A DNA stretch of 64,000 nucleotides from Ulota crispa (Eukaryota > Streptophyta > Bryopsida > Orthotrichales > Orthotrichaceae). Below, piece by piece: positions 14,500 to 47,577 of the stretch. Positions within the stretch are counted from its first letter, which is position 1. Each line of letters starts with the position of its first letter. The position numbers and the translations under genes were made by a program. The notes beneath the pieces are model-generated. The model saw only the letters and a list, made by a program, of their open reading frames with translations, did no database searches and was not told the origin of the DNA. The stretch is from contig OY987244.1 of assembly GCA_963920765.1 (NCBI GenBank), positions 6,760,501-6,824,500 of the forward strand, given 5' to 3'.

Positions 14500-14513
14500 C
14501 ACTAATAGAAATT
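14500..14513. repeat. Left terminal inverted repeat of the 33-kb CACTA
   Basis: CACTAATAGAAATT, preceded by the target duplication TTA. It differs from the right terminus by one substitution and one inserted A. Confidence 0.85.
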
Positions 14514-17500
14514 GCTACAAAAAATAACAGAAACATAACAGATCCTTGTTGTTTGGGATAGTTGCATTTAGAAGTTCTGTACTTTCACTAATTTTTGTAC
14601 TGCCTTTACCACATGGTGCCCTCATTTTGTTGGTTTGAACACTGAAAACTTTTTGACACTTTTAAAACAATGCCTTTGTAATATTTTTCAGTTCAACATG
14701 TGTCCCATGCAAACCGGTGCTACAGCCAGACTGTGCCTCTCCTTAAAATTCGAAAGCTGATAATTCTATTCTCAAGTACAATAGACAGTATTCCATAGAA
14801 AGTGATGGCACCGTAAGCTTGAAAATGCATGGATATATATAGAGGTCAATCATAAAATTGGATATACAAAACTTTTTATCACAAAACCCAAACCTCACTT
14901 TCACTTGCTTCTGCATACCATGCACATACACATCTATAATGCTTGTGCCTGACTTTACACATAGAAAGTAACACGTGAACACATGCTATTTATGACTTGG
15001 TTATCAAAATGATGCTTCTAATTCTCCATTCACCACCTCCTCCTTTGCAGTTTTGGTTTCACTTGCCAAAATAAAAAACATTCAGCATTCATTCAATGTT
15101 CAGTGTACACTAGTATAATTGCATTGAATGCTTCATTTTTACATGACTGGTGAAAAGCTACTAGATTGCATTGGGATTGCCGCATTCTGTAGTTTGAAGA
15201 GCTCTTAGGGATTTCATAGTGAAGACTATGATGAATTTTTTAAGAACTTACATGAATGACAACACTCTTCACAAAAGTGATCAAAAAACTCCCTTCACAT
15301 CAACAACACACTGTCCCAAATACAACCTTAGGGGGTTTCTATTATGCCATTCTACACCAAAATTGTTCACGTGAATAAGATTTGTGGAAAAGTGGGCAAG
15401 TCATTTCATGAATGAGCCATGACGACCTCTTGCAGATCTTCATAGCGTACTAACTGACAAACAAAAACTTGTTCACGACTATTCTTTCACCGTTTTTTCT
15501 AGATATATGAAATTCCCTATTCATTACTCCAAATGTGCATTTCGTGACAATGCTCTTTCTTGACTCAATGACCAGCGCGTTTGAAAAATAACCCACACTG
15601 CTACATATAACAACTCACTGTTTCCTTGAACTACTAGCAAACGCAAAGGTAAAAGACATATTGACGTGATGTCATGACTTACACAATGTAGAAAGCCAAA
15701 ACCTCTTTTGTGGTACAAGTGCTTAGGAAGCACGCAACAATAATCATAGGACCGTCTATGTCACTTCTCTAATACGAAACAATCGGGACTTCAAACACGG
15801 GAAAATCCAACTGCTGCGCATAACTCCCTTCCTCTTTGCAACTTTGTGTACTGCAACTCCCACATTACACTACATCAGCATTAGAAAACCACTAGCTAAG
15901 TATGAGAAACCATTCCTTCCTTGTTAATGCAAAGTATACAGCATGGAAACCAATAGCAACACAGAAATGAGACCGAAATGGCAATTACAGTCCTTTGCCA
16001 CTACCGCGTTTTGATTTGTTGAATTGCATACTTGCAAAGAAAACTCATGCCATAAGACCACATCCATAAAACAAGAACATAAGATGTAATTCTTCACTAC
16101 TAATGACAAGGCTCACAACCTTTAGACCACCTTTTGCCTCCCCTATAGTATGCTCCAATGTAACTTTAGAACTCCTTGCAATGAAAATGTTATCCACATT
16201 GATTTCTGCAAACATACAACATGACCATATGAAAAAACCCACAACACTAAAGGAACAACATTCACCCACCACAAACAGGAAACATTACTAGCATCAATAG
16301 TACAAGCACACATAGGATACCTCTAGTTGCTTTGTTCTCTCATACACCTTTCTTTGTTGTACACTCCACACTTTCCTACACTATGACATTCAATTGGGCT
16401 CACATCAGACTTGATTTCCGCCAAAATCCACAATGAGAAAACCAAAGATATCCAAGTTTTAGAATATAACTTTGCTTTCCTGTAAGACTCTAGAATTCTA
16501 GCATTTCCATTTCCTTGTTCAGAATTGTCATCTCAAGTACTCAATTTCTCCTAAAACAAATAAAACACTTAACAACGACCCTCCATGACAATGTTGATTG
16601 TTACCACTATGCTAGACCAACTTCACAATACTCACTAGGTTTCAGAGTCTACCTTTTCCATATTGATATGCAACTCATTGCAAATCTAATTGTTCCTCCC
16701 TTTCATTTCAAACTGCCGTAATATGATAAAATACTTCATACATTGAATTGACATGCTAAATGCAGACTTACGCATGGACTCATGCGTAATCTACTACAAG
16801 TGATTCGATCAAACATTTATCGTCTTCCACCACTACACACGGTGCTGCTTACAACATCTCCCACATTCATTGTCAACTCCTTCATACCTGACGCAACATC
16901 TTCCCATACTATAGCCTACTGCAACACTGTCAGCTGTGTCTCATGCCCAGTTCAACTACTTGTACAAAAACAACACATATGCATTTGACAATTGATTTGC
17001 TCCCAACTACAGCATCCAAGCTATCAAGACCTACCCACCACATACAAGCAACTCCGTTTGCAACAACCTCAGTAGAAATGAATTCACATTCTATAAAACT
17101 ACCTAGCCGATACTGAGAATATGTGCAAAAAGTTGCAGCACGCTCCACATGAATGAGACTACGTCTTTGAGGACCACGCCATCAACCCCTACTATGCAAA
17201 GACATGAAATACAGCTTCCATTCTGCTTTGCAATGTGATGACAACATTCACCTTAATACAGATAAAACTACTTCTCCAAACCACTTGAACTACTCCTTAC
17301 GTAAATAGTTGGGTTTGTTACTGTCTTACACTTACTGTCATTTCATTGCTTCCCTTTGTCAAACTGACAGTGGGTCCTAGAATTTATTTACTTACTACCT
17401 ACCAACACACGTACAATCCACTGACCGACAAGACTCACTGGCTACTTCTCAACATCCTTTGATTTCCTCATTTCAGTACAAAATGGTGAAAAAATCCAAC

Positions 17501-20500
17501 ACCTCTGAACGCCATACACCTCCTCAAAACCTTGTAACACTTTTACATCTACTCTACAAGGAAATTAAAGACAGAAAATAAAATACCTTCCGTTTCCTTT
17601 AGTGACCGTAGCCGTCTTATTGACCTTATTGCCTGCTCTAAATAACATGAACAAAACCATCAATCAAGAAAAGCTCTACTCTCTTACTACGTCTAAAAAA
17701 CATGCATGCATATCATATAATATGTATGATCACATTTCTTTCACAATGCAATGTTTATATCTCACCAAATTACCTACTTATGACTACAAAACCCACTATC
17801 ACTGCACCTTTATTGCAACCTCTAGCTCCAAGAGGTTCCAGTGGCTGCCCTTCATCATACAAGTCCTACTCAGCACAACCCCTTTCCACAAAACAGGTAT
17901 TCATAATTGAAGGACAAAGCAACATCCTTTGAACTATACCTTTTAATGAGGACCCTATCACTCTCTCATTTTCCAGAGTCATCTGACTGAAATTTTGACG
18001 ACCTACCATGTGCTTTGCAACAGACATATTTCTATGAATCACATACTCGACAACATCTAGTCTCTATAAAGAAAATTCATATGGCCCATAAAAGTTTCCA
18101 TTTGCATACCCACCTCTGCAAGAACCCCATAACTCTCGTCAGTACCCCCATACCACGGGAGTCTCAAACTTCAGCCGCCACTAAAATTCCACCTTCATTG
18201 CACAATAGAGTCATAGATGAAAAGCAAATACCCACTTCACGCATGCACCATGTTAAAGAAAATAGCCTTTATGGTTTCATTGCTGTAAAGCAATGACCCG
18301 TCATGGTTTCACACATGTTTCCAAGTCCCATTACTACGGCAATTTAAAATTCTTAACCATCGTACAACTCCTCCTTAGTTACGTTTTCATCTTTGTCAAT
18401 ATCCAGTGACATAGTCCTCTCCTCCATCCAGGCATGTCATCATCACTTCCTACATTTTCTTATATAGCAATCACTAGTTGAACAGCACATACATGTAACT
18501 TTACTATATAGACATCCATAATGCTAAGACAATCTGGATTAAACAAGAGTACAGCTTCTTCCAAAATCAAAACCACAAGTGCATGTGACACAACTCTATA
18601 AAAAGAAAAAATCCCAAATAGTAATGACTAACACAGGCTTCTCATTCACTAGATATAACAATTTCAATCAGAATATTGAGTGAGAAATAACTAAAGATAA
18701 ACTTCAGAACCTACCGCAACTCCGTCTCCATGGCCTTCAGAGTTGTGACATGGGCTGCATGTAGAATCTCTTGCTAATTCTCCGTACGCAACTGATGAGA
18801 ACTTTGCTATATGTTTGTATAGAAATCATTGACATCCTACTCAATATTTGAATCCATGACAAGAAATACAAAGAAGACAGAAGCTTAACTTACTCTGTCA
18901 CATGATAAATGTGTACCACCTATTAAAATGAAAATCATATATAGTACGAGACGTTATACATAGAATTACATGGTGTTCCATCCTAGGAAATTCTACCACC
19001 CCTGGTTCAGATGTAAATCTAACATGTAGAATATTCATTACACTGACCAAATACAAAATCAGTAAATGCTTTCCAACCCCTTGTAAAATAGATAAACAAA
19101 GTCATCTTGCATCAGCATAAAACACTCTTCAATTTAGCTACTGCACCCCAATCCTCTGGAAACACAACTGATCCCCCCTATCACTCATTGAGAATTACTA
19201 CAAAATTAATACAACACAGCTGCTGAGATCAATTTTCAGTAGGTTCATAATACATTGTACATTTACAAACAAACTTACATCACGACAACAAAAAGTGAAT
19301 TCCTGTCACAATGATATTATACAAAACAAAATCCATCCTTTGCGAATTTTTGTACCAAAAATAGAGCAATACAATCTTCAAATGATTTGGATAATCAAAT
19401 CAATAATGTTTTCCATTTGGCAATCTAAGTAATACATCAAGAATGTACATCTGAATGAAGTAGTTATAACAATCACCTGCACAACATTGAACGTCCGACC
19501 AAATTGTTAGCACAGGGACTTCAAAACCTTGTTTACACCAAAGGACCATTAAACTCTATGATTGAAAGATTCAATGATACAAAACATTTGAAAAATAAGA
19601 ATAAACCCATATCACTCTCACACAATAACAATGACCTCAATCACCAATAACACGTCATCAACCACCAACACAACCACCAACACTTCCTTGAATAGAATGA
19701 CTGTACACACAACCTCAACTTCTTCAATCAATTGTTATTAGTAAAAACTTGAACATTTCCTACTTCATCACACAACAAAACAAATAAAAGGTCTGCTTTG
19801 AAGTTATCCTAAGATAGAAAATTACAATACATCCCAGTTTACATGGCCATTACAACAACGTGTACAATGGCAAGAAAATTCTTCCATACTTGCAAAAAAA
19901 GTCCACTCCAAAGGTCATCCTATTCAATGCTAACACCAGAAACCATTAAGCCTTCTCAAAAACAAACGTTAAGATTAAGTCAGCAACAATTTTAACAATA
20001 AAAATATCACCAGCGTATCCTTTGTACAATTTCTTTGTTCATATTTTTGGTTGTCATATAATTGCCATCACCGTTTAGTCAGACCTTTACAATTGCCATC
20101 AAGCAGACAAATCACTCCAAAGGTCAATAAATTCTATGCAAAAAATAGATCCTTTAAGCATTTTCATCAATAAAATGTTCAAATCACAATCTCATAATTT
20201 CTCACAACAACGCTATAACCATCATATTAAACACACAATCACTATGTTTCTTTCTCTGTACAGCATAGAGCCACCACCTACATTCCATTAGAAATTTACA
20301 GTGGGCAAGACAACCCATTTGGAGGGTATTCATGAACAACGACAACGACCACCAGCACTCCAGAATCCATTAAGCATGTTGAAGAACTATTGGTTTGAAG
20401 CACTTCAATGTAAACATAATTGAGAAGACCATAAAGGAAGAATTGATTTGCACAATTATGTAATTTGTACTACTTGAACATTAAACAATCGCCATCAACT

Positions 20501-20668
20501 TTCCATTACAACTTCATATTGGCCATCACAAAATGATCAGGGTATATGCATAAACAACAACATAGACTATTTCCACTCTTCAAACAAGGCGATTATCATC
20601 AACCCATTCTCATTTAATCAAAAAAACCTAACAACAATTGTTTGTAATGCAGAAACGCAGATTCTCAC
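14514..20668. other. Left arm of the 33-kb CACTA, non-coding
   Basis: About 6 kb with the plus strand strongly C- and A-rich; 19621-19680 has 23 C and 2 G by eye count. No recognisable protein domain. Short open frames occur on both strands. A minus-strand stretch at about 18713-18840 looks exon-like: a frame including HAAHVTTLKAMETELR ends at a splice donor. It contains TAG codons, so it is not called. Confidence 0.5.
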
Positions 20669-21648
20669 CTCTGCAAGTACACTCAAAAGAAGCGCACCAT
20701 TGGGTTTGCCATCAACACTGGACTTCACTACTATTGCTGCACAAGCAGCTTCAGCTCCCACATCTTTGTTGCGTTCACGATCGGAATCCACGCCTCCATC
20801 TCCATAAATTATTTCCAAAATTTTGTATTTCATGTCAATAACAACACGTGACCGCATACATTTCATCCTCACATATTCCACAGTCTGGTTTTAAAGGGGA
20901 ACTTCATCACAAATGACCTACCACATTTGTTAATTTGATCGGGCAAAACATTTCACCAAATCTACTACCATGACTTCACAAAAAATAAGGAATAAAAGTT
21001 TAGGGTTTAGTAATACCCTCATTCCATTCATGGACTACCAAGTTTGATATTGGAAACTACAGGAACACTTCTCACGCTTCCTCTGCCTTGTTCAACGCAG
21101 TCTTACCTCACGATTCCTAATTTCTTGAAGGTGTACACGCTGTTGGACACGTGCCTACATGAAAGCACAGATTTTCCCCTCAAAACAATCACCGCTTCAC
21201 ATGAGTAGAAGCTCAGCATCATAGTTCTCACACACACTAGATTCAAGCACAACCTACTAAATTTGCATTCACATACATGCATCACCACCCTGCCTTTCCA
21301 TTATATATGTACATTATACACTCCTCTGCCAATACTTTGGAATAAGCAGATGCATCACCGCAGTTGCATTGAACCTCTCCGTACTTCATTTACAACTGCA
21401 TTGTAATCCACCAGAATTAGGATTTCACTTGTTCAATTTCTCTATCACTTTAATAAATGGCATGAGTAGTAAAACAAAAGTTTATAATGCAAAAATCACG
21501 GATATTGTATTCATCCCCAAACCCTACCCACATGCCTATTGAATCAATGATGTACGTCTACCCATAACATGTACTAGTGCATTGCAAAGCCAAAAGCAAT
21601 ACCAATACCCTATGGAATGTGTGCGGCCATTACCTGTCCGTTAGCCAT
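20669..21648 (-). CDS. Candidate spliced gene of unknown function inside the CACTA left arm
   Basis: I do not recognise this protein. Three minus-strand segments join in phase 0 with GT-AG borders: 21648-21634 (ATGGCTAACGGACAG, in a good plant start context AAGATGGC), 21154-21107 (ARVQQRVHLQEIRNRE), and 20884-20669 (72 codons beginning TVEYVRMKCMRSRVV and ending LLLSVLAE). Together they give 93 residues without a stop, in contrast to the stop-ridden transposase upstream on the same strand. The next exon was not found. It begins about 420 bp downstream of the transposase stop, so it could be an accessory gene of the element, a captured host fragment, or chance. Confidence 0.33.
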
Positions 21649-22067
21649 CTTGAGTAACACAATATTTCCAATCTCATTGCATACCTAAAGCAAATTCCTT
21701 GAAGACAGAATAACAAACATGATAGTGCGTTGTCTAGACATGACTGAGGCAATATAATACTTGATGAATTCATCCTCCACACATGAACAACTATAAACGG
21801 TTTATATTATAAACCAAACTAAGTAAGGCTACCAAGAACATCTACTGAGATCACTTGTGACCTTCAACATAAACTATCAAGAAATAACATGTAAAACCAA
21901 TTTCATTCACCAACGCCTGATTCCACTGAGTCCTCACACCTGCAACATTGGTCAATCATAAGTTGAATACATGAAATTTGAGAGAAATATCTACAAATTC
22001 TTGCGTATCAATCAAATCAGATTAAAAATACCAAATTACTCACCTGATTCTCATTCACAGAATATTT

Positions 22068-22946
22068 TTAGTCCTCTTCAGAGGATTCTCCAACATCTCG
22101 ATCAAACACAAGGGCTTTGTCCTTAGTCTCCTCTCCGAGTACTGCATTCAAGCGGATGTTGCGGCCAATATGAATGGGCGCATCATCATATTCAAGATCT
22201 GCAGGAGGTGGACAAAGTCCAGCAAAATCCCCATTTTCTCCCATTCAAAACATTTCAGGCTCCCTTTCTTCTTTGTACGTACTATCCACTCTACGCCCTC
22301 AAACCTCATTATGTAGGACAATCTTCCAACCTCCCTCCTCTTCCACGTCAGAAAAGAAAACTTGATCACAATGCACAAGGAAAGCAAATGATTCATAATC
22401 AAAAGGTAAAAATGAGTTGAAGTTGGCCATGGTGAATCTCCATTCTTCTTTCTTTATAGTTGCATTTGCACCCCTATAATTTGCCTTTACCCATTCACAA
22501 ACCAGCAATAGAGTGCAATGTTGTCCATAGTTCAACTCCACTATCTCCAATTTTTGGCCAATATACTCAAGGGATGCATCAACTGGGTTTGGATCTTGTC
22601 TGCCAAATTGACAGGGTCTTCTAAAAATAGCAGCCACTCCAGAATCACATGTTTTTGGGATACTTTCCTCTGCACTTTTCACTATGTAGTGGTATCCATA
22701 AGCATACACACTCTGAATTTCCTTGCAAGTAAAGAGGGTGCCCTAGAAGAGTCCACAACATCATCTACAACTTTGAAGCCTTTATCTTGAGGAGTCTGCA
22801 CCTCCTCTTTAATCCATACCAAAAATGCCAGAATTTCCTCTAAATCGCTAGGATATGGCATCCATGTGCGACCCGTCCTTCGAGGATGTCTTCTACAAAA
22901 GTCGATTCTTGCAGTTGTTCTCTCCTGGAAGATCTCTTTGTATGTC
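22068..22946 (-). pseudogene. TNP2 C-terminal exon with DUF4216
   Basis: The acceptor after TATGAAG joins the DUF4218 exon in phase (R-T-Y-K-E-I-F). The frame gives FCRRHPRRTGRTWMPYPSDL, then DUF4216 (YGYHYIVKSAEES, CDSGVAAIFRRP, IVELNYG, LVCEWVKAN, FTMANFNSFLPFDYESF, HCDQVFFSDV, GGWKIVLHNEV, GRRVDS). A 2-bp slip in a GTGTGT run lies near 22710. In-frame TGA codons lie at 22299 and 22245. The first replaces the Arg of the conserved RGRRV. The tail is acidic and ends at TAA 22068-22070. Confidence 0.88.
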
Positions 22947-23226
22947 CTTCATACAATCCAAAACAACCTTAGAACTAAAGATCACAAACTCAAATAAACA
23001 TTTATGAACACATTAAACACCTCTCACCAATATTCAACAATTATGATACACTAAAATGACTATACTCATTATTGCTGCTTAATTCGACATGTACTTTTTA
23101 GTACATGGAAAATATTCTTAATAACTTACATTTAGAATTAGGCCAATACTACTGCTTTAGCATTACTAATGTATTCTTTGTGCTGTCATAGAAAAAGCAA
23201 AAATTAGATTATTAAATACAACTCAC

Positions 23227-24122
23227 CTTTGATAAGGCTCTAAGTGAGATGCATTGTCCAAAACAAAGTTGTGCATTGAATTTTGAAGTTCCATTGATAA
23301 ATGTCTGGGCTTCCCTTTTCCCTCCAAAATCTCGTCCACCATTGTTGGGTCCTCCTTGTCGTCCCACACTCTTCTAGAAGTAATGCTGTATTTTGACATA
23401 TACTCTATTACAAACCCTAGTGCTTCTTCAATTTGATAACCTTGCGCAATGCTTCCCTCAAGTTTAGCCAAATTTTTGACAAACCCTTTTAAAGTTTTGA
23501 AATAGCGCTCATACGGATACATCCACTTGGTGTGGATAGGCCCAAGCAAAAAAAGCTCCTCCACCAAATGGTTTGGCAAATGAGACATGATATCAAAAAA
23601 AGAAGGCGGCATTTCTTTCTCTAATAAACACATGGTCTCTGCACAATCCTTCATCAACTGCTCTTTACTTCCATAATCCACTATTTTAGCACATATTTGC
23701 CTAAAAACTCTGCTCAAGCAAATTATTGCAAGAGCTAGAGATTTGTTAGAAATTCTTCAAAAACACAATGGCAATATTTGTTGCAAAAGAGCATGATAAT
23801 CATGTGATTTGAGACCACTTAACTCCCCCTTGCTGATTTTATTATGCAAAGCACTTGCATAATGAGTTGGAGTGCTCAAGGACTTCAGAACAGATAACAC
23901 CTTCCCCTTATCTTCTAGAGATAACACATAAGGAGCATCTGGCATATAATACTTGTCTAGATGATGAGGAATTCTTTGCAAATGAAGGTTAGGTCGGATA
24001 TGTCCTGCCTGCATGTTTGCCCTAACTGCAAGTGAATCTTTATCGCCAAATGTTGTTTTTAGAATGTTTTCACAAAGGTTCTTCTTGCAATGCATCGGGT
24101 CCAGTCCATGACGTACAAGCAA
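23227..24122 (-). pseudogene. TNP2 DUF4218 exon
   Basis: LLVRHGLDPMHCKKNLCENI matches the R-H-N-L-D-V-M-H-I-E-K-N-V-C block. Further on, MPPSFFDIMSHLPNHLVEEL and MYPYERYFKTLKGFVKN are the hallmark of DUF4218. One in-frame TGA (23757-23759) stands between LLPLCF-like and RISNKSLALA sequence, where the family has no break. The exon ends at a GTGAGT donor (23226-23221). Confidence 0.9.
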
Positions 24123-25640
24123 CTTTTGCACACACATGTCTAACAATATCTTCAGTAAAATTGTTGTGACAGTAAGTGTAGTATTTGATTAGTATTTTAG
24201 ATATGAACAAAATTCAGCATTGATGATACGATGAACCAAAAGCATCACTACAAAAAAGCATATTGCAAATATTCACACAACCATCCCAAAACTATTGGAA
24301 ATGAAGTTTGCTAGTTCTCTCGACCAACCATGGTCTCTGCGGCAATCACACCAATAGATCCAAGTATTTCAGATTAGGTAAATTGTACATTCAAAAGGTC
24401 ATTCCAATCATCATTTTCATGAATACATGAAGATGTAGACATACAGTTTCTATGCATTCAGATGTACAAAAAAAAGAATGAAATATACCAAGGTCTGTAT
24501 ATGCTAACAAATACATATTGTAGAAGTGTCGCTATAGCATTGTCACTTGCATTAAGGTAACCGCATACTAATTGCGACTTCCTCACAAGCATTACAATGA
24601 AGCTGCCTAATTGATGTTTTAATCAGCCTTTAAGGTATTTTGTTGACAAATTAAGAGTCTGCAGTAGTCTTCATAGATGATCAATGATTCCTTTTTGCGT
24701 TGTTGATCTTTTCTCACTACACATCTCATGACTTTGTGCTTCAGTATTTTAAGTTTTGACATGTCAAATTACGTTGTATACAATCAGTAATTATGTTTAC
24801 TAATTCCTATCTCCAATTTTTTTTTAATGTGCTAGACAATAAGGTGATGTTGTGTTGGTGACTAGATTTATATGGCATCTAAATTCATGCACTTTGGACG
24901 ATGAGGATTAAGCACTAAAGTCAAATGTGAAAACCCATTCACATCATGTCTTCTAATAAGTTCAGCATAACTTGGCTGCTTAATTGTTTCAAAGCTTAAT
25001 CATAATATAGATAACCTAAGCCAAATGTTGGGCGCCATTTGATTAGGGCTAACTATACATAAATGTTATATTCTTACCGCATTAATTTCTTCAATGCAAC
25101 TAGATTTTTAACCTTCACCCTTGAGATTATATTATCAAAATGTATTTCAAAATTTAATGCCTTCAACACTACTCTAGTCTTGAATATTAGATGAGAAAAT
25201 CTCAGTTTGGTTACCTACATTACAAACTACTATAAACTTAATACTTCTTTCATAAAATTTTCTATTGCTTTGCTTTGAGGTCAGCACCTAGAATGAAATC
25301 AACTTAAAAGCACTTGTAATTAGCTGGGACACTACGTTTAAAAGCACCCAATTCTTAAGAATTTTTAACTGAGAAAAATATACGGCCCCAGCTATGCTAG
25401 TTCTGAAAACTCCAATGAGCCATCCTGAATATAATTTGTGCTAAGAGAACAGAAGCACCTACTTTAGACAGTGAGATATGAGATTTTCATAACTTACACA
25501 AGTATTGTCAAGTATATTTTTTCCCATGCATCACTCACCAAACCAACAATATTGTCACTGCATTCGCTAAAAAAGAAATATCTGACTGCATATGTATACC
25601 AACACAATAGCAGCACTAAGAATAGCTTGAGAAAACTTAC
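24123..25640 (-). other. TNP2 intron of about 1.5 kb
   Basis: Between HELPNWT and LLVRHGLDPMHC. The donor is GTAAG at 25640-25636 and the acceptor ends at 24123 after TGCAAAAG. No coding motif or transposon insertion is seen within it. Confidence 0.55.
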
Positions 25641-25790
25641 CGTCCAATTTGGAAGTTCATGGAAAATTGTCTTCCTTTTGACGCCATGGAGTTTCACAAG
25701 GTCGTCGTTGCTATTTTCCACTCCACCTTCTCTTAGGAATACCTGTCTTGCAGTTCCCCATCAAAGAATCTTGTCTCCAATTGGCCTCTA
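25641..25790 (-). pseudogene. TNP2 linker exon
   Basis: RFFDGELQ, then VENSNDDLVKLHGVKRKTIF and HELPNWT at a GGTAAGTTTT donor. The F-x-G-E segment and the K-S-I-F-x-E-L-P-Y-W-like segment are standard between the catalytic and DUF4218 parts of TNP2 proteins. A one-base shift separates its two halves. Confidence 0.65.
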
Positions 25791-25835
25791 TGGAGCCATG
25801 TCCCACTCTTGAAAATTGTTGAAAGTTACTCTTAC

Positions 25836-35430: not shown

Positions 35431-36266
35431 TTATAGAAATAGAATCTTTTAGATTGAATTAGAGTCCTTTAGGAATCTTTTTGTAATTCATCAAAATACT
35501 ATAAAATATTTTTAACAAAAAGGCTATTACAATAGTTTAGGTTTGTTTTTGAAATCTTTCTAAAATCTTTTCGGACCTTTTTTAAAAATTTTGAAGTTTA
35601 AAAATAAAAGAAGTTTCAGAAAAAAGAAGAATCTTTTAGAAGTTTGAGTGTACATTGACTGGTTTTATTTTCTTTACTTTTCACAATTTGGTAAGATTTA
35701 AAATTAGCAGCCTTTAAAATCAAGTAAAAATATGACCATAATAACAAAAAAATCAATAGTTTTCTGTTGATCTGAACACTTTTGGACACAACTTCACTAA
35801 TTCAACAAAACTTTATATAAAAAGTACAACATTTTGTTGTTTTAAATACCAAAATTTCTTTACAAACAAATATAAATGATGCTCCTCAATTCTTTGAAGA
35901 AATCATATATGTCCCTTAAGGATTAAAAGTACCAAAAATATCTTTGTATTATATGATAACCAAGTGTATAGTTTAATGTAAATTCTTACAAGAAACCAAA
36001 GGTGATTTTTACATTTCAAATAACACAAGGATATATCTAACATTTCAAAATAGAAGAGTTTTTTTATTAATTTTCCAAAATAATAGGAGTATAATTGATA
36101 TTCCTACAAAAAATAAGGAATATTTTTTATGTTTTACATATTTTTGGCGTAAATTTGATATTTTGAAAGACTTAAAAGGGTATTTTTAGTATTTTTCCTT
36201 CTGTTACTAATCAAATGACTTAAAAAAAAACAATCTTATAAAATATTTTTATAAGCTTTAAAAGAT

Positions 36267-36681
36267 GGGAATTGATATGTGTACCACACCCTTCCAATTA
36301 GTATACCACACCACGGGGTAAATTTTAGATTTCTACCATCAAAAAGCTAAATTTGAAAATTTTGAATTCAGATTTGGACTTAGAAACCATGGTATTTTCT
36401 AGAACCATAAAAAAAGTTGCAATTCAACAACACCCAATGAAAAAGTTTAATTAGGAATAAAATTGTTAATTTTACTTTTGTTTGTAAAAAAAGATAAGCT
36501 TTTTCATTGGATGTTGTTGAATTGTAATCTTTTTTATGGTCCTAAACAATACCATGGTCTCTAAATCCAAATTTAAATTCAAAATTCTCAAACTCAAATT
36601 TTTGATGGTAGAAAATCTAAAATTTACTTCAATGGTGTGGTACAATAGATCAAAGGGTGTGGTTCACATATTAATGTCCTT
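36267..36681. mobile_element. Fold-back MITE inside the small CACTA
   Basis: Two arms of about 170 bp are inverted copies. The outer ends match as ATATGTGTACCACACCCTT against ATATGTGAACCACACCCTT. Inner landmarks are TTGCAATTCAACAACACCCA and its complement. A related partial copy is at about 6155-6620. Confidence 0.75.
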
Positions 36682-37277
36682 AAAAAATATCCAAAACTAT
36701 TCAAAAGTTTATAGAATTTTGATTTTATAATTGCACGGGTTTAATTCCATAACTTTTCACGACTTCATGTTATTTGAAGCTATCAAACTAAGGAGGCTAT
36801 TTTAACAAAATAAGGTTCTTTTTACAAAAAAACTAGCACTAAATAATAATTATTAATAAATCCAACCTTTGCCTGCAACAATCTTTATGAGATTTGTGAA
36901 TTCCAAAAAAAATTTATAAACAAAATCAAAAAGATGGAAATAAACAATTTATTTAAAATTTCTAAACACCTTCTCTGATTTTAGCTCATAACTTTTGATA
37001 AAAAGATTGAAATCCAAAAAAAACTGTTGGAGGTGAAAGTAAAATACATTAACCAATTTTTTTTAGTTCTAAGTTTTTTGAAAAAAAGTCTTTTAATGGG
37101 CAGAAATAGCCTCCAAAGTCTACTAGATTACTAAAGACATGAACATTTAATGTACAAATAGAATCAAGATACCAATGTGTACATGTGTATTTGCACATTC
37201 TCTAATGATTTTTGAGAATGTGATAAAGTTGTGGAGTGTAAGAAGAGAGGTGGAGAGTTTAAACCCCACTACTAGCA

Positions 37278-37937
37278 GCTGCCCGGGGGTTCGGGCAACT
37301 GCCTGTTTCCTAAAAAGTTCACATTTTTGTAAAATAAAAACAAATTCTATAAAAAAAAAAAAAATTAAATTGAAAAGAAATAAAATTGAATAACATAAAA
37401 GAAGTAACAGAAATCAACAACAAATTAACAAAAAACTTTAAATAATCAACAGAAAATCAATAGAAAAATACCCAAATCAACTTGACCAAATTCACAGAAA
37501 AAATCAACAGTTTTTGGTTGAAATTCTGTTGATTTTGTGCTAAATTTTCTACTAGTGGCAGTTGCCTAGCAATTGAGGCAACTGCCCGATAGTTGGGGCA
37601 GCTGCTTGACAGTTAAGGTAGCTGCTCGGGATTCGGGCAGTTGTCCAGTGGTTGGGGCAGCTGCATGTCCCCTAAAAAATTCACTTTTCACAAAACAAAT
37701 TAAAATTCTATGAAAAAAAATTTAAAATTGAAAAGAAATAGAATTGAACAACATAAAATACGTAACAGAAATCAACAAAAAATTAACAAAAAACTGTAAA
37801 TAATCAACAAAAAATTAACAAAAAATCAACAGAAAATCAATAGAAAAGTACCCAAATCAACTTGACCAAATTCACAAAAAAAATCAACAATTTTTAATTG
37901 AAATTTTGTTGATTTTGTGCTAAATTTTCTACTAGTG
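37278..37937. repeat. Duplicated right terminus of the small CACTA
   Basis: Two copies of the last 280-300 bp, each ending TTTTCTACTAGTG, at 37557 and 37937 (380 bp apart). They are separated by GC-richer CAGCTGCC-like repeats. Both copies keep CCAAATCAACTTGACCAAAT and TTGATTTTGTGCTAAATTTT. Only the outer copy has the CCC target duplication next to it. Confidence 0.85.
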
Positions 37938-38364
37938 CCCTGAGATGAATAGGATGATCCACAGCCTTTGAAAACATTCCGGCTCACGATATAGGCAGTC
38001 GCAGAGCCCAGAGAGCTCTGCACAACGTCGGCCTCACCGGCGTCTAGAAACCGACCGAGGGAAGTCACCTTGATACGACTGTGATGACGGTGCGCTTACT
38101 GTACCTCTGACATATGCATACTACAGGGACATAATGTTTGTAAGGAAGGAATTGTCATTGTCAAATATTTACATGTAGCCGCAAGTGCGACAGTAGTCGG
38201 AGCACTGCATGCAAATGTTAGTGAATTGTTAGGCAGCATATTCTGAACTTGTTAGCTGTGTTGTTACATTTGATTGCAATAATGAGAAATGAATTATAGC
38301 CACAGATGTCATGTCTTTCCTAACCCTTACATGTATTAATACCTAAAAGTTTTTTCCATTACAG

Positions 38365-39404
38365 AGGACCGGTCCCATGGGAGCTTATTGAAGAAAGATA
38401 GACAAGGTCATTCAAGTTACAAGGTAGCATCTCCGGAGAGATTTCCAAAGCAGAGGATGTATGAATCTGTAAGACGTAGAAGATCTCCATCACCTCGGCG
38501 ATTGAGATCACCATCTCCTTCACAGCATGGTAGGAGACGGGGCATGAGGACCAGTAGTTGCACGTTATCTAGGTCACCACTGCTGAGGGCCAGCTTGTAC
38601 GTGAAAGAAGGATTGTACCAAACGTCAGGGGCCATAGAAAGAAGAGAACGCCGACACAATCAACGTGCTTGCGAAGACGATGTAGCTCAACGGGAAAATT
38701 CTGGTAAGACATCTGTTACGTTGACGGTGGATAGCGATGGAAAACCATCCGGGAGATTTAAGAAAACCTGGTTAGCTAAAATTACAAAGTTATCAGTGGG
38801 GCTTGACCCTTCCTGCACACATATCAGGAAGCAGTCTTATGAGGACATGTAGACGTTCAAGGAAAGGCTGGATGATGGTTTTGAATATGTGGGACGATTG
38901 GATGAAGGCCATCTCAGGAATTTGATGGGCAGGGCAATTTCAAAGAAGAGGGCAGCACTGATAAAAATGATCAAAGCTCGTGGGGAGCAGCCGCTGCACA
39001 TTGGTAACGACGTGTGGCGTCGTTTGGAGCAGTTAGCATATAGTAAGGAAACAGAGCAGAAATTTGACCAGGGGAGATACGCTAATGCTTGTCAGAAAAC
39101 TGTTAGCAGAGCAGGCGCGGCTGGCGTTCACAGTGTAAGAGAGAGATTTCGTTCAGCATGGAGGAGATCATTTGATCTTGATGATATCAGAGAGGAAATA
39201 GAGAGGGACAAAGGGTTTGGAAGGTGTAAGAACAGATTGGTAACTCAAAGTTTCAAGCGCCAAAGTACCCGAGAAACTATGTTGTTCAAAGACAGCTCGT
39301 AGTCCCACTGGAGCGGAACCGAATCAGATGGAGGACAGTGTGATAGTATCTACACTCAGACGTATAAGAGGTCTAACAAGGGAAATATCAAGTATGAATT
39401 GCAA
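38365..39404 (+). pseudogene. TnpA-like exon with RS segment and Transposase_24-like domain
   Basis: A good acceptor, TTTTTTCCATTACAG. The N-terminal part is basic and Arg/Ser-rich: SVRRRRSPSPRRLRSPSPSQ. Next comes SGRFKKTWLAKITKLSVGLD, then after a TAG (38850) TFKERLDDGFEYVGRLDEGH and KQ-like KFDQGRYANACQKTVSRAG. Last is HSVRERFRSAWRRSFDLDDI. After a second TAG (39300) SHWSGTESDGGQ and IYTQTYKRSNKG follow the usual order of the family. It ends at a GTGAGT donor. Confidence 0.75.
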
Positions 39405-40078
39405 GTGAGTTTTCAATATTTTCATAAACCCAATTTCACCTTATAATGAGGTATATACTAGCGTGTATGGTTTTAGGTGCATGAAAATTGTGTAAGCAAG
39501 GAAACAAGATATTTTGAAAATTTTCGAAGTGACCATGTTTATAAATTATGTGCATTGTTGTGCGCGGTCATTGAGCAGTCAAAGTTAGAGAGCATAATGC
39601 TGCCAGTTTGCTTACATGCGGTTGTTCTTTGTTGAATTTGATATTCTGGGTTGAATATTAGTTCTTAGTACGTTTAATAAGGGAGTTATATGATGAGTTT
39701 AAAGATAATGACGTCTCAGCACATTTGTATTTGTGAGCATTATCTCTGTCTCAATGCCAATGTAAGTATGTAAGATGGAAGTCAGGGACAGTGCACTATG
39801 TTGTAGAAGTTAGTACTAGGAGTATAAAGCAGTGATTAATCCTTTGCTGATTCGTTTCATATTACTTCTGCACAATTCGTAGATAACATTCGATTTTTAT
39901 GAAAGATGTTGGCTAATGTAAATTATGAAAACAAAATGCCATTGAAAACTCATTTATGATTGAATTCTGTAGAGTCCTTGAGAACAGGCGGCGAAGTACA
40001 AGTAGGAAAGGTATGTCATGAACAGGAACTGCTACTCTAATGAAAGGACTAAATAGGCAATGGAAATTTGATGTGCAG

Positions 40079-40330
40079 GCCAGCAGAAGTGCAAAAGCTA
40101 GGGACTGCATGGAGGAAGAAATGGTCGCTGTTAACCGCAGCATCAAGGGGTTACAGTCATGTTATGATAAAAAAGAAGGTGAGAGTGATATGAAAGACAA
40201 GTACATTTTGAGGCTGAAAGCGGAAATTGAGTTGCTCAAATCCAACAACAGCAAAGCCTCTGCATCAAATTTTGGCATGTAGTCGGATGGGAGAAGCGAT
40301 ATTGCATGCACTAATTGCACAAGAAGTACA
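40079..40330 (+). pseudogene. TnpA-like coiled-coil exon
   Basis: The acceptor GATGTGCAG joins the previous exon in phase 0. ASRSAKARDCMEEEMVAVNR, then KEGESDMKDKYILRLKAEIE and LLKSNN show heptad-like hydrophobic spacing. A TAG at 40280 follows NFGM, and the frame then continues SDGRSDIACTNCTRST to a GTACGC donor. Confidence 0.6.
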
Positions 40331-40477
40331 GTACGCACCCATATCACTTTCCTTGTGGTCCGCATTAGTTCTGTCAATGGTTATTTCTGCATGATTAATA
40401 GGAAAATGCTATTAGCCACCACTCTGAAGTACTTAGAGTTGCTGACATGTAGGACGTGACTATATTATTGCATGCAG

Positions 40478-40585
40478 CACTGCAACATGCAAGAATGGAT
40501 GAAAGACATAGGTGAAGGATTTGAAGGAGATATGACGGAAGCAATGGGAGTTTGTCTGCTTGGAAAGGGAGTTTGTCATTCATGA
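40478..40585 (+). pseudogene. Probable terminal TnpA-like exon
   Basis: Acceptor TTGCATGCAG, in phase 0. HCNMQEWMKDIGEGFEGDMT, then EAMGVCLLGKGVCHS and a TGA at 40583-40585. Confidence 0.45.
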
Positions 40586-43500
40586 TTGGTACATATTGAA
40601 AAAATCATCTGACAATCACAACAACTTTACATAGTGTGTATACATATATTAGGCTTTTGTAGTTCATTGCGTGAATTTGAAGGGTAACATATGATGTACA
40701 ACATAGTGCGTGTATTGTGTGCTAAGATATAGAAAGAAGAGGAGGTTGAAAACCAAGTCTTTTCAGCACGGAGGTGTTTCAGCACTTTGTCGTTTGTTAG
40801 TGTGGTGAAAATGTGGTCATCTCCGGTAGGTGAGCCTCATGTTATTTGGTTGTGTATGTACCTGAAATATAGCATGGAAGGTACCTTTTGTAATTCCGAG
40901 GAATGTCGGAAAGAGTGGAAGTTCATATCTTCTGATGAACTCTTAATTTATTATATATCTTTTGTGCCATGTAGGTCCTTGTAGTACCTGATTTCTTGTT
41001 TTCAAAGTGTATGGATGTAGTCTGCTAGGTTGTGCAGACGTCTGAGACAGTGATGGCAACTGGGGGGGAAGGGAACATCTTTATACTGCGTGTTATGCAA
41101 ATTTGGGAGAAAGGTACATCCTGGGACATTTCCTTGTTTCCGCCGTTATGTACATTTTTGCTTTTTCCAAATAAACAAACTTGTAGTTTATTGTACAATA
41201 CTGTATTTGCATGACTTTACTACAAGAATTTCAATATGTAGAAGCTTGAGCAATATGTATGCAAGCATTTATCATATGGGAATGAAAGCAAAGTATGAAA
41301 TGGAGAGTGCGTTTTCCTGAGGTACGATGTACCTAATATGCTAGATAATGTTTCTATAATGTAGAATGATCTGAGAGCACTATAGTTGTTCCATAGCCAT
41401 GGCTGGAAAAATGGAAGTGCATAGAGAAAATGTTGAAGTTCAATAAAAATTCATGCTATACGTATGACAGAAGTGGTAATTTTCTATTCTGTAGAGCAGG
41501 TTGGGTAGAGGAAGAATGTGGCGGCTGCTGCTGTAGCGATAAGGAGGCGCTCATACTTATGTAATAAAATGTATATCATTTGCTCATCTTTGTTGTGGTA
41601 ATATGTCTGCCATAGAGTGATGGAGAAGAAACTCAAAATGCGGGTGCGGTACTCTGTGAGTGATGGAGTATCCCTCTTATAGATAACACCACCGTTGAAT
41701 GTGGCAGTGAAGTTCAGTTAGGGCAACAATGAAAATGGCTGCAGTTTGTGATTGCCAGAGGAACTCCTAAGGAATGTCAAGTTTAATGGGTCTGATGACT
41801 TGAAGTGCAAATCACACTTGATACAAACAAGTTTACCTTACCAGGTGAATTTTCTCTGATTATTGGGAATCGTGTTCCCGAATGACTGTACTGTGGATGA
41901 CAGTCTTATTAGAAGAACGCCTTAGTCATGGAATAGTTAGGAAGGGAGAGTTTGGGAGGTACTGATGTTCCGTAATTTGGAGAGTACTGAGTGAATATTG
42001 TGTGAGAAGCACAAAGAATAATAGTTTGAGAATATTATATATTCTCCAATCACGGAGTGATGCATTTTTGGTGGAGATTTTATTCAAAATAACATGATAT
42101 TTGATGAATTGGGAAAAAGAAAACATTTTGGGACTTTGAAGAGATCACCTCAAACCGAGCTACTTCCGTATTTTTGGTACAAGTGTCCTCACCTGAGACT
42201 CACTGAAGTGGAGGAATTTGGGAAGGAAAAAATCTTAGTGGCTTAGACTAAATCTAATACCTTCAAATATGGTTTAAAACAAGTTTTTGGGATTGAGGTG
42301 GAGTACAAGATGGCACCTCCGATTTTCCCAATTTAACAAATATCGTGCTAAATGGTGTTGTATTTTGTTCTTATCTCTACTGGTAGTGCAATTCCTTATT
42401 TTAACTAGTAGTGGAGAATTCAGAAATGTGATGTCATTTGCATTTATAACGTAATGTGGGCTTGGTCTTTGTTTGTCATTTCAAAAAAATCAATGATGTA
42501 TAGGATTTTGAAGTGATTAAATGTTGAATGGGAGGAGCTTGTGTATTTTGAAGTGGGGGTTTACCGTAGGAGAATTGCTAACCTTAAATATTTTGCCTTG
42601 ATTGAAAGTATGCAGTGAGGCTTTGTTTTTTTAGTTTAATGTCAATCATTACAACCAGTGGCAGCTTTTTCACAAGGCCTTTATAACGGACTTGGCGAAC
42701 AAAGAATTTGTCTGTACTTAGAAGTTACTGACGTTCTAAATGTAACTGTGCCTTGTAGCATTCCTTGGCAGGAATCGTAAAGATTAGCTATGTAGCCATT
42801 GCTACAGAGATTTGCATAAAGTAAGACATGTTTATTATGTGCTGACTGGTTCATGTGGGTTAATGAATTTGTAACAGTACAAAATGTTGACCTTCAAAAT
42901 AATTAGTGACTCGTAAATTATAGTCGATGATCATAGAGTGGGCATGTATTTCATTCTATGCTCGAAGGAATGGAAGGCCAGAAGAAGGTATTGTTGGCAG
43001 CTGTGGGAAGGTTTTGTGTGTCCAGGACGCAAGTGCTGCTAGAGGATTACTGGATCAGAATATACTTGTCTAGAGATGACGTGTATAAGTTGTGAGGTCA
43101 TTGTAGATTTATTCCGTGTCCTCAAAATGTGATGGTGAGGTTTGTGGGGTGTGGAAGTAAGAGCATTTTAGATTTCCTCATGCGCTAAGTAAACATTGCT
43201 TATGCCGTCTTTGTAATGCAAGAATAGTGGCAGAGTATGGGTAACTGGTGAGACGTTCATAAATTCTGTACAATGTATTGTATTGACATCATTTTGCAAT
43301 GTTGTATGACCTAACTGTGTGGAGAACATGGTAATCCAAAGAAAAGTTAAGAGTATGTCAATGATGTTTTGTGAAAATTGAAATGGAAAAAGTCCTCCCA
43401 TGAAAGTACGGCTAGGTCCTTTGGCACTGCTAATACGTGACTCTTTGCATGTTCCTAAAAATTGCTTATTTCAAGCAGGATGTTATTCATCATAGAGTGG

Positions 43501-44918
43501 TTTGCCAAGGCGGGCAAGTGAAACACATCTTGGGATGAGATACACACGGTTAATGAAGCTTCAGTGATGACGTAGTGGTCTGCTGGATACTGGATAGTAA
43601 GCATTGTGAGAGTACAAAAGTTGTAGACATGTAGGTCTTGCCTTTTCAAGTTGTTTTGATGTTTTGATGTATTGTGGAAACCTTATTGGGAATCAGTAGT
43701 GAAGTACTAAGCTGAGGCTTACTTGAATTCAAGAACAATTGTATGGAACTTTGTAATGCGTCCGAACTGGTACGTGCTTGTCATATAGTTTTGCGTGTAT
43801 TGAAAGGTGTGTTAGTATGTAGTTACGGTGGAATTGTTAAGCATGCCAATTTTGAAATTATTTGCTGAATAGTTTATGATTATAAGTTGTGTGCAAGCAT
43901 TATGTGTTCATTGACTAGGTTTGTTGGTATTTTTGGGTGTTTAGGAAGACTTTGCGTTTTGCATTTAGAGGGGAGAATGAGCTGCCTTCTGAGTGCAGTT
44001 GACATGTGGACGACAATGTAAATTTATTGAAGTCTTCTCTAAATCTGCAGGTATGACTGTTCTGTAATAGGAGGAAAAGTGTATATATTTTATTAATTAA
44101 AAACAGAAATTGAAAGTGTTATGTAGGATGACTGTGTATGCAGAGCATATGTTTAGTGATTTTGATGATGACAAAATAAAGGAAAATGAACATGCGGAAG
44201 AAGACTAAATTGAACATGAAGGATGAAGTACCGTCCTTTTTTGGAACCTAGGGAAGTGAGAGTGTGAATATTGTATGAAGACAGTAGTGAGTTCCATGAA
44301 ATCTTGCACTCCAATTTTATTAAATTTTTCTAGGTAGGAACGTGTGTTTGTATTGTGAGGCGGAAATGGAGCAAAGTTCATTAAACCAGCTAAATTTAGC
44401 AAGATTGCTAACCAAACTGTCATGCAGCAAAAATAAATGTTAACTTTCCAGTGTTAAATTTGAAAATTTTACCTTTTTAGGAGTGTTTTTAGCCACTTGT
44501 GCTAAAAGTGAATGTCATATTTGGGATCACTGAAATGGAAGCATTGAAAGACTTGTCGTAAGACAGTTTCATATGTCGCTAAAGTACAGTATGAAGTTTT
44601 AACAAGAGTTTAATGTTGATGGTACTTGTTGAAATTCTTGAGTTGAAGTTGTATTGGAAAGGTGATTGTAAGAAGAAGGGTTTATTTGGTACTGAAGTGG
44701 TGGTACTGTATTTGGGGATTGAATAACAGTTATGGGACATATAGATTTTGTAGTTTCAGAAGTTGATGATGATTTGTACTAAAGTTAATGATTATTTGTT
44801 TGAGACCTAAAGCAAACAATGATTTATTAGGAAGGAATTTTTTTGAACACTTACTTCAATATATCCATCAATTTATTATTGTTAATATTGAATATGACTT
44901 CCCAAACTCTATTTAGGA

Positions 44919-45290
44919 AAATCCTTTGTGCCAAAATAACAAATGCAGTGTTTAATGTTGAGGAAGTAGATTTGGACATTGGTATTGCAACTCCTCATAA
45001 CTATCTAAGAATTTGTCGTTCTATGCTACGCACATTCAGAGGACATGTTATATTGTTGGGGAGTCGTACTTATTGTTTGTAGGTGGAGTTGTTGAACCTT
45101 GTGTAAGTGGGGTTTTTGTCATACAGTTTCATATGAAGCTAGGATTGCTTTAGTGCTATGTTACATGTATATTAATATAAACCTAAACCACCAATACTTT
45201 TATAGGCAGCAAAGGATGATTGTAAAGAGAGGCTTAGTTTTGTGCCTAGTTTTGCGCATGGGTTTAAGAAGTTGAAGTTGGCAAAATATG
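44919..45290 (+). other. Exon-like segments of an unknown plus-strand gene in the right arm
   Basis: After a CTCTATTTAG acceptor (about 44919) a frame reads KILCAKITNAVFNVEEVDLD, then IGIATPHNYLRICRSMLRTF and on to a TAG at 45080. A second segment at 45206-45290 lies between a CTTTTATAG acceptor and a GTAAGC donor. It reads AAKDDCKERLSFVPSFAHGF then KKLKLAKY. I do not recognise the protein, and the joining is not established. Confidence 0.28.
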
Positions 45291-45354
45291 GTAAGCGTGT
45301 GTGGAAGTGGACATTAGAACGGAAGATTATAGAAGAATAGAACTGATATTTGTT

Positions 45355-45357
<3 letters not shown>

Positions 45358-45442
<85 letters not shown>

Positions 45443-45457
45443 TATATGTATATAGTT
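45358..45457. repeat. (TA)n microsatellite in the right arm
   Basis: About 100 bp of TA repeat with ATACATATATATGTATAT at its end. Confidence 0.95.
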
Positions 45458-46052
45458 TTTTTGTTTGTTTGCTACGTCATTGGTGAATTGAGTGAATATG
45501 CTCTGTTTTGGAAGTGACTGTTGTTTGTACTTTGCTTCATTCAAAATATTATGAAAATACATTCCTACTACTTGATTGCAATCCTGGAGATAATGTGTAT
45601 GCTCAATGTATGTGTTGTGTATTTTTCAGTTGTGTCCCAGTGTTGTAATATTCTCTTAGATGAAGACGGCTGTGTAATTTGACTCATGTGCAGGTCTAAA
45701 CCCTATGCAAAGAAGGCGTCAGGATGAGGCAAAACTGAAGGACTTTGTTGTGAATATGATTACTCCATGAGTGCTGTGCGTCTTACAAGAATGTAAGTTC
45801 TTATGTTGCATTGACCTTGTGTGAAGCAAGCTGATGAGGTCACTATTATGATTTCTTGCAATGTTCATTATGGAATAATGGAAGGAGGAGGTACCAGTGT
45901 TTAATAGATTACATGGAGTAGTGAGCGTTGTTGCAAGTGTGAGAACTATGCATAGTCGGTGGAGATTGGAGAGATAAAAATCCCATTTTTGTTTATGGTG
46001 TAAATTGTGATGTGAGGAAGAACTTGCAAAAGTGTAAGTACCTGCTGTACAG

Positions 46053-46186
46053 AATGCCGCAAGTGTTTCAAATTTGGGATTAAACATGTGAGTGTGTTAA
46101 ATGTCACGTTCTTGAGATTTCTGAGTATGTCAATGATGTTGACGTTGAGAAGGAGGTGAATGACAGCAAGTGCATGAAGAATACAG
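46053..46186 (+). other. Exon-like segment with CxxC in the right arm
   Basis: Between a TGTACAG acceptor and a GTGTGT donor a frame reads MPQVFQIWD, a TAA, then TCECVKCHVLEISEYVNDVD and VEKEVNDSKCMKNT. The C-x-C-x2-C spacing is suggestive only. The TAA could be a former CAA. It may belong with the segments at 44919-45290. Confidence 0.28.
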
Positions 46187-47559
46187 GTGTGTAAAGTTCT
46201 TCATTCAGACGTATGTATGAACGTTATTCTTAGCAAGTAGGAAGTAAAAGGGTCTGCTTGCGTAGTGGTTTTATTTGAGACTAGGTATAGTGAATAAAAG
46301 AAAGCATATGCTAACATTACCATTTCTGGATTGAGTATATCATGTCAATCACCTGTATACAATAAACAAAATATTTCTTGTGCAAAGAATTATATTTGTA
46401 TGGAATACAACCGTTGTCTAGCCTTTCAAGAAGAGGAAGAGATTTGGGAAGCTCTGCAAGGATTTGGGAGTACAGCACATAGTATGGAGTTGAACACTTG
46501 GTTTATTGTGTCTCTCCTACATTAGCAATAGAGTGTACTTGTATAGATTGCTGGCTTAGTTCTGTGTATAGTTTTTGTAGGAAATAAGTACGGGTATGCA
46601 GGGGCCACTCTTGCATGCATTCAGAAGTTCTATTTGTATAGAATTAGGAGGTGAGCATGGAAAATGCACTCTCCGGCAATGTTAATGAAAGAGAAGTTTG
46701 TATTGTATGTATAATAGGTGGAAGACAGGTTTTTTTGATTGGGTGCATTTGTTTGATTTGTATACTTTGCCTCTATTCACTTGAAAGGTACTTTTGTGCT
46801 AAGCAAAGAGTCTTGTATGTTTGCGATACTGTGGAAGATGATTATTTAGTTTTGTCAGTACAAGTGTGGCACGTATGTGACTTTTGTAATGTGGAGGCAA
46901 GGAGTTTGGGAAAATTGTATTATTGTAGGTAGACAGATTTCTTTAAGTAGCATGAACATCAAGTAAGAGCATGACATGGGTTTAAGTGGTTGAAGAACTG
47001 CTGTTAATCTTCAGCACTATTTGCTATTGATTTATGTTTGTTTAGTAAGGAATTTGTGTGCAGGAAATGATTGGAAGAGAAAACTAACCCTTAAAAGAAA
47101 TTAATGAGTATTGAATAATCTAAACAACAAAGGGGGAAAAAAAAAACAAAAAAACTGAAATTACTCACAAGTGCATAGCATGCAAAGAACTTATTGGAAT
47201 GAGGAATGAGTAATTGAAATCTGTTAAGGAAGTTATGAACAAAGAATAACAATATGGATTGAAATAATTAGAAGCGCAATGAGAAAATTCCTCAAAAAAA
47301 AAATCGTATGACAAGCATGTATTCAACAGTATTGGAACTAATATAATCCCCAAAATGAACAAAAAAGCAAGAAATCCTTGTTGAGATGAACAGATAATGT
47401 ACTTCGTATTAACTGAACTACAACAAGTACTGAACAAGTATTTAACACAAAACTAACAGAGAAACAACAGAATGGAGTACCTAAGCATCCAAATCAACAT
47501 GTCCAAAGCCACTAAAAAGATTAACAATTTGTAGTTACGAAACTGTTAAATATTTAATT

Positions 47560-47574
47560 AATTTTCTACTAGTG
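47560..47574. repeat. Right terminal inverted repeat of the 33-kb CACTA
   Basis: AATTTTCTACTAGTG, followed by the target duplication TTA at 47575-47577. It matches the ends of the small CACTA exactly over TTTTCTACTAGTG. Confidence 0.87.
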
Positions 47575-47577
47575 TTA

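Follow-up and report, generated by a model that had tools for sequence, protein, structure and literature searches.

Large CACTA (En/Spm, DTC) transposons have been described from several plants and a red alga. Grapevine elements (Cactavine) measure 10-25 kb, are old and mostly defective, and include five families with ULP domains (PMC2528002). Soybean Tgmt* reaches 20.5 kb and Antirrhinum Tam1 17 kb (PMC2613891), soybean TgmR* 13 kb (PMC4219821), and Chenopodium Jozin 8.3-10.1 kb, with a 16.5-kb form that carries a satellite array (PMC8978399). Wheat CACTAs are described as 'up to 30 kb' (PMC4290129), and enlarged En/Spm elements of 16-20 kb with 4-5 open reading frames (ORFs) are known from the red alga Chondrus (cited in PMC6431247). 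Here we analyse a 64,000-nucleotide stretch of the Ulota crispa genome (the window, G000:C3:6760501-6824500; coordinates without a contig prefix are window positions), in which 14500-47574 is a real CACTA element, with nothing contradicting the element itself. We put at about 97% the probability that this element (copy C3) is old and no longer active, that it belongs to a low-copy family of very large CACTA elements, that it inserted in a Harbinger-type repeat, and that it was later hit by a smaller CACTA element and several short repeats.

The family has the CACTA...TAGTG ends, 3-bp duplication, subterminal repeats, Transposase_21-DUF4218-DUF4216 transposase of plant CACTA (En/Spm, DTC) elements and, like them, a second gene. 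It differs from them in its length of ~29-32 kb, its ~7-kb non-coding arms, a second gene that matches no Pfam family and perhaps the divergent orientation of its genes. Cactavine elements are likewise long, old and mostly defective, whereas the present family reaches 28.8-32.0 kb and gave no ULP1/Peptidase_C48 match among 18 scanned fragments (PMC2528002). Tgmt* is also a large, putatively autonomous CACTA with tnp2, a 3-bp duplication and subterminal repeats, but it is 20.5 kb long and is described as one large gene with alternative transcripts where this family has a divergent pair (PMC2613891). Wheat CACTAs share the upper size, with short tandem repeats called typical of them in contrast to the few in the arms here (PMC4290129), and the Chondrus elements are also enlarged, but with 4-5 ORFs rather than two genes and non-coding arms (PMC6431247). 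The first-pass annotation had presented the length as exceptional against a usual 2-20 kb; the length itself stands, but it is less exceptional than that, since published CACTAs reach 25-30 kb. Among the published figures found, the family (other undeleted copies of 28.8, 29.4 and 32.0 kb) lies at or slightly above the largest. A literature search, with subscription papers mostly outside its coverage, found neither this family nor arms of constant length described.

The element, its ends and the smaller element nested within it are laid out as follows.

14500..47574, whole CACTA element, 33,075 bp including the nested element (ends, TTA duplication, empty sites, colinear copies)
14500..14513, plus strand, left terminal inverted repeat, CACTAATAGAAATT
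47560..47574, minus strand (read inward from 47574), right terminal inverted repeat, CACTAGTAGAAAATT
14497..14499, left target-site duplication, TTA
47575..47577, right target-site duplication, TTA
34377..37937, nested non-autonomous CACTA, 3,561 bp, with a CCC duplication at 34374-34376 and 37938-37940

The window element has the CACTA/TAGTG inverted repeats and the 3-bp target-site duplication (TTA/TTA) of the CACTA superfamily, and the single ~33-kb CACTA with matched ends and TTA flanks that had been proposed from the letters alone is found as described: CACTAATAGAAATT and CACTAGTAGAAAATT, with TTA on both sides, bound 33,075 bp. The motif CACTANTAGAAA has 5 occurrences in the window, where 0.05 would be expected: at the two outer ends, at the one left end of the nested element and at its two right ends (37557 and 37937). 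The right terminus of the nested element is tandemly doubled, its two ends standing 380 bp apart; of these, 37937 alone shares a target duplication (CCC/CCC) with the left end at 34377. An AT-rich tandem array also lies inside the nested CACTA (34530-35401). Subtracting the nested element and its duplication (33,075 - (3,561 + 3)) leaves a core of 29,511 bp, which agrees with the earlier figure of ~29.5 kb. The reported subterminal similarity to a shorter relative is seen as well, the outer right end being 70-73% alike to the two nested right ends (142-145 aligned columns).

Empty sites join exactly at the outer ends of the element, and both borders are thereby fixed. The query for these sites consisted of both 500-bp window flanks joined by one TTA, and it was searched genome-wide (275 Mb in 157 contigs, the genome used for all relatives).

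14000..14499, plus strand, host repeat left of the element, dispersed in the genome and carrying the remnant of a Harbinger-type DDE transposase, 500 bp tested
47578..48077, plus strand, host repeat right of the element, continuation of the same dispersed repeat, 500 bp tested
C9:16104624-16105619, empty site matching query 5-1000 at 76%, single TTA at the join
C7:6203943-6204634, empty site matching query 321-995 at 75%, GTA at the join
C4:8719071-8719734, empty site matching query 1-667 at 73%, single TTA at the join

The search gave 11 matches, of which two are the window itself, three run far through the join, four run just past it and two do not cross it. When read base by base, the three empty sites, which are paralogous copies of the dispersed repeat, continue the repeat on the other side of the join; the four weaker matches (65-68%) extend merely 25-54 bp beyond it. 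The C4 copy of the host repeat retains a DDE_Tnp_4 remnant (E value 5.3e-15), which together with the host-repeat motif we take to be PIF/Harbinger. The window element inserted into this host repeat in the past, and the claim of firm borders holds at all three sites.

Other copies of the element were found with its two ends. Genome-wide searches returned 5 matches for the left end (301 bp) and 11 for the right end (400 bp), itself included in each case, and the best non-self matches of both ends lie on contig C11, ~29 kb apart and in the correct orientation, giving copy C11a.

C11:1493435-1522812, copy C11a, 29,378 bp, flanks TTT/TTT, right terminus decayed to ...TAGCA
C1:211422-240251, reversed, copy C1, 28,830 bp, flanks GAG/GAG, right terminus decayed to CGCTAGTGG
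C6:5578259-5600807, copy C6, 22,549 bp, flanks TTA/TTA, ~6.8 kb missing (most of the left arm and the transposase end)
C11:3570818-3602834, copy C11b, 32,017 bp, flanks CTA/CTA

Copy C11a and the window element are colinear throughout; their alignment of 27,524 columns shows 73.9% identity and a Jukes-Cantor distance of 0.32. All five copies read end to end have matching 3-bp flanks, for which multiplication gives a chance of ~1e-8 because two flank 3-mers agree with probability 0.027. In each of the five the order is kept, with a tnp2 transposase reading left and a second gene reading right. Their 1-kb flanks (166 bp for the right flank of C11b) share one 26-bp match only, so the five copies are separate insertions. 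The check that the first-pass annotation had proposed, a search for further full-length copies, thus turned up four, with flanks TTT, GAG, CTA and TTA and the same gene order. The contrary outcomes it had named, ends that never occur together or unrelated sequence between them, are absent from all five copies, the right terminus having decayed from CACTA in C11a and C1.

These copies and empty sites bear on two other accounts of the locus. It might be a composite, in which a 10-15 kb autonomous CACTA lies inside a separate element, or in which unrelated ends of neighbours are paired, so that the 33-kb unit never moved whole. Nested insertions are indeed real here (34377-37937 and several short repeats), but among the inner CACTA ends a matching duplication is confined to the pair of the 3.56-kb nested element, the outer ends and the gene order recur in five copies at separate locations, and the empty sites join at those outer ends. 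We give a composite of smaller elements next to no credence, as the five copies and the empty sites rule it out. The copies might otherwise be segmental or whole-genome duplicates of one insertion, which would make them uninformative on transposition of the large unit. Such an origin would suit the fact that C3 and C11a align throughout, in non-coding as in coding parts (69.5-85.7% in each kb bin), but hardly accords with flanks that share a single 26-bp match and with the triplets TTA, TTT, GAG, TTA and CTA. We reject segmental duplication on these unrelated flanks and triplets, and consider this account, too, vanishingly improbable.

The element holds two divergent genes and a pair of subterminal regions.

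22071..27627, minus strand, broken tnp2 transposase gene (profile matches, copy comparison, purifying selection)
27361-27627, minus strand, Transpos_assoc, E value 0.0037, weak and below the Pfam cut-off
25933-26442, minus strand, Transposase_21, E value 6.1e-41
23226-23756, minus strand, DUF4218, E value 4.9e-28
22302-22742, minus strand, DUF4216, E value 9.9e-06, below cut-off in the window copy and above it in C11b
32254..40456, plus strand, broken second gene in the ORF2/TnpA position, predicted to be multi-exon, with four conserved stretches
32254-32562, plus strand, second gene, basic stretch with an AT-hook-like run
33305-33718, plus strand, second gene, middle stretch
38340-39299, plus strand, second gene, Arg/Ser-rich plus conserved stretch
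40037-40456, plus strand, second gene, coiled-coil-looking stretch
14500..14799, left subterminal region, degenerate AAWCAACAGAAAA-like repeats, 1 match (at most 3 mismatches)
47275..47574, right subterminal region, degenerate AAWCAACAGAAAA-like repeats, 5 matches (at most 3 mismatches)

The transposase gene thus combines Transposase_21 with DUF4218 and DUF4216, the tnp2 arrangement of CACTA (En/Spm, DTC) elements. For the second gene, the exon, AT-hook and coiled-coil labels were assigned by eye and splicing is predicted only. The dN/dS ratio (nonsynonymous to synonymous divergence, by Nei-Gojobori counts with stop codons and gaps dropped) is 0.05-0.41 for the transposase pieces and 0.16-0.39 for two second-gene pieces, the window being represented among the latter by 38340-39299 only; in one comparison synonymous sites were saturated and no ratio was obtained. 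Both genes evolved under purifying selection in the past, which means that the family stayed mobile and coding over a long period. Observed synonymous differences between copies amount to 0.25-0.76 per site, and the synonymous distance between C3 and C11a is 0.31-0.62. A substitution rate of 6.5e-9 per site per year would put the divergence of these two copies, to no better than an order of magnitude, at tens of millions of years.

When the C3-C11a alignment was scanned for codon phase (2,696 windows), 54 windows passed, mostly in the transposase (22.4-27.6 kb, on both strands as mirror frames). Within the second gene a pass falls at 38.66-39.23 kb, and further passes lie at 28.3-28.5, 32.2-32.4 and 32.9-33.2 kb, with 3-16 stops. 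At the ten 300-bp ends of the five copies, AAWCAACAGAAAA (at most 3 mismatches) has 35 matches, while interior draws give a mean of 4.6 and a maximum of 10 (200 draws). The subterminal repeats characteristic of CACTA (En/Spm, DTC) elements are accordingly present as a degenerate AAWCAACAGAAAA motif.

Several results limit what can be said of the two genes and of the subterminal repeats. The window copy cannot be autonomous today, because its pieces of both genes hold stops and frame changes (some maybe at intron edges) and its transposase is not intact; the copy itself looks dead. None of the other four copies is free of stops and frame changes in all its pieces; the C1 transposase is so by construction, as the transposase reference was taken from it. 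The second gene in CACTA (En/Spm) elements often carries Transposase_24; that of the present family, in the fragments scanned, matches no Pfam family at or above cut-off. No window in its middle (33.3 kb) and last (40.0 kb) stretches passes the codon-phase scan, and a fold prediction for its main stretch from a two-row alignment was poor, with a mean predicted local distance difference test (pLDDT) score of 49.5. Given the lack of a Pfam match, the weak codon signal and the poor fold prediction, a DNA-binding role for its product is suggested only by analogy. Among exact 8-mers (at least 10 occurrences) compared between ends and interior, only poly-A stood out, and the AAWCAACAGAAAA enrichment is descriptive, because the motif was picked from the very ends where it was counted.

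The two-gene layout recurs across the genome. The transposase search scored 150 of 523 candidates, so that all counts are lower bounds, and gave at least 28 close loci (≥70% identity), five of which were read whole. The second-gene search gave 100 matches, reduced to 80 when 20 extra fragments of loci already listed were dropped by hand. Among the matches listed, the second gene accompanies 26 of the 28 close loci within 20 kb on the side predicted, divergent in every case and at a median distance of 9.55 kb (range 7,868-13,077 bp); none was found within 20 kb on that side at C7:21043797 and C6:20248024. The more distant transposases show it in 21 of 122 cases among the matches listed, again all divergent, a lower share that is expected because the query has diverged. 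On the opposite side, a second gene occurs at one of the 28 close and one of the 122 distant loci listed. The 21 distant cases are transposases less than 50% identical to that of the window, with the divergent second gene 6.8-11.3 kb away (C2:5348745/5359221, C1:40011184/40019413, C8:12251198/12262468 and others), and the layout therefore looks older than the family of the window element. A right end lies 7.6-11.0 kb beyond the second gene at nine of the 28 loci (the C9:8.11 Mb case rests on 46 bp); it was not found with these queries at the other 19, which is not evidence of absence. Matches to the ends also reveal short elements of ~2.6-3.9 kb, and one of ~17 kb, in which left and right ends of the family face each other.

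C7:6442671-6445234, facing-end element
C5:16091010-16093770, facing-end element
C9:617062-620069, facing-end element
C1:38267303-38271240, facing-end element
C2:1101385-1104619, facing-end element
C6:10753265-10770300, facing-end element

Beyond the two genes the window copy has long arms, which contain short high-copy repeats.

14500..22070, left arm, ~7.6 kb, no codon-phase window passes
40457..47574, right arm, ~7.1 kb, sole passing window 44118-44295, with 18 stops
15327..15518, high-copy short repeat in the left arm, absent from C11a
42085..42347, high-copy short repeat in the right arm, absent from C11a
44373..44541, high-copy short repeat in the right arm, absent from C11a

The arms of about 7 kb that had been noted beyond each gene thus measure ~7.6 kb on the left and ~7.1 kb on the right. 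Left arms are 7,571, 7,672, 7,000 and 7,205 bp long in the four copies that keep the arm, and right arms 7,118, 6,838, 6,769, 6,329 and 6,870 bp in all five, as set by gene landmarks that rest on partial matches in C11a and C11b. Of short tandem repeats, the arms of the window copy contain only a 12-bp unit present twice and an AT run. The sequence of the arms has drifted roughly as fast as synonymous sites, and the most distant copy (C11b) can be aligned in the arms only in patches. Between C3 and C11a, nine arm gaps of at least 40 bp comprise the three high-copy repeats, one foldback, one AT run, two neighbouring gaps (626 and 125 bp) and two unassigned. The 626- and 125-bp gaps look like losses from C11a (~0.75 kb), because C1 has similar sequence. 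The foldback lies in the left arm of C11a (element positions 2241-3144, within C11:1493001-1502000), is 90% self-complementary and is absent from the window copy; nested insertions add to the lengths within the family, as this one does by ~0.9 kb. Copy C11a is also without the nested CACTA.

Most simply, the ~7-kb arms are non-coding ballast that travels with the element, and two alternatives were weighed against this. The arms may serve a function, for instance in spacing, as transcript leaders or in chromatin shielding, with selection maintaining their length or contents because the giant form works better. Their lengths fit such a view, at 7.0-7.7 kb on the left in four of four copies and 6.3-7.1 kb on the right in five of five despite 0.25-0.76 synonymous differences per site, but the arms show no coding signal bar one stop-filled window, drift at roughly the synonymous rate and align only in patches in the most distant copy. 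Moreover, C6 lost most of one arm, perhaps after insertion, C11a seems ~0.75 kb shorter through loss, and few deletions in an active lineage would equally explain similar lengths. Nor is arm length fixed, because from second gene to right end four further loci measure 8.1-11.0 kb and the five copies 7.6-9.0 kb. Arm length may be under selection, although the lengths come from four left and five right arms; we consider functional arms rather unlikely, with a chance of about one in four. The same doubtful standing applies to the broader proposal of a long-lived ~30-kb CACTA lineage in which the two ~7-kb non-coding arms keep their length while their sequence drifts, so that arm length itself would aid movement, expression or escape from silencing. 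Distinctly less probable is that the arms are captured host DNA, as in Pack-CACTA elements. CACTAs are known to take up gene fragments (PMC2528002, PMC4290129), and C10:11710127-11713131 resembles the left arm in pieces (67-77%) and has none of the listed transposases beside it, which could make it a derivative or a possible arm source. However, other left-arm matches lie in or beside CACTA transposase loci (C11:1.49, C11:2.30, C1:0.23, C2:19.78, C7:0.69 and C7:21.05 Mb), the remaining ones are short (63-114 bp at C9:18.70 and 18.71 Mb), and the codon-phase scan detected nothing gene-like in the arms. Capture thus gains little support for the left arm, which was searched with a query avoiding the high-copy repeat, right-arm searches having been swamped by short repeats.

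The element most probably moved by cut and paste. The leftward gene would supply a tnp2-type transposase that recognises the CACTA ends, the product of the rightward gene may bind the subterminal repeats, as TnpA/ORF2 proteins do, and a staggered cut of the target would leave the TTA duplication. The helper role proposed for the second protein follows accounts of other families (PMC8195511, PMC4158355).

Elsewhere in the window, a VQ-motif protein gene lies ~12 kb right of the element (59592-60062, minus strand; Pfam VQ, E value 2.6e-07), adjoined by a tandem repeat with units of ~131-144 bp (60303-60844). VQ genes are a mark of plants, and this one accords with a plant host. At 7024-7233, about eight 26-bp repeats leave both strands open for more than 130 codons.

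The window element is a well-documented example of a known CACTA kind. Large elements of this sort can be verified from one genome, through 3-bp flanks that match, copies that are colinear and a dispersed repeat that offers empty sites. For annotation the locus is a warning that a 30-kb tract of plant DNA, seemingly low in copy number, can be a single transposon. The remaining oddity is that arm length is similar across copies while arm sequence drifts. Length is usually expected to come at a cost to DNA transposons, and a ~30-kb body with ~14 kb of non-coding arms, present in deeply diverged copies, offers a test case for the size limit of such elements.

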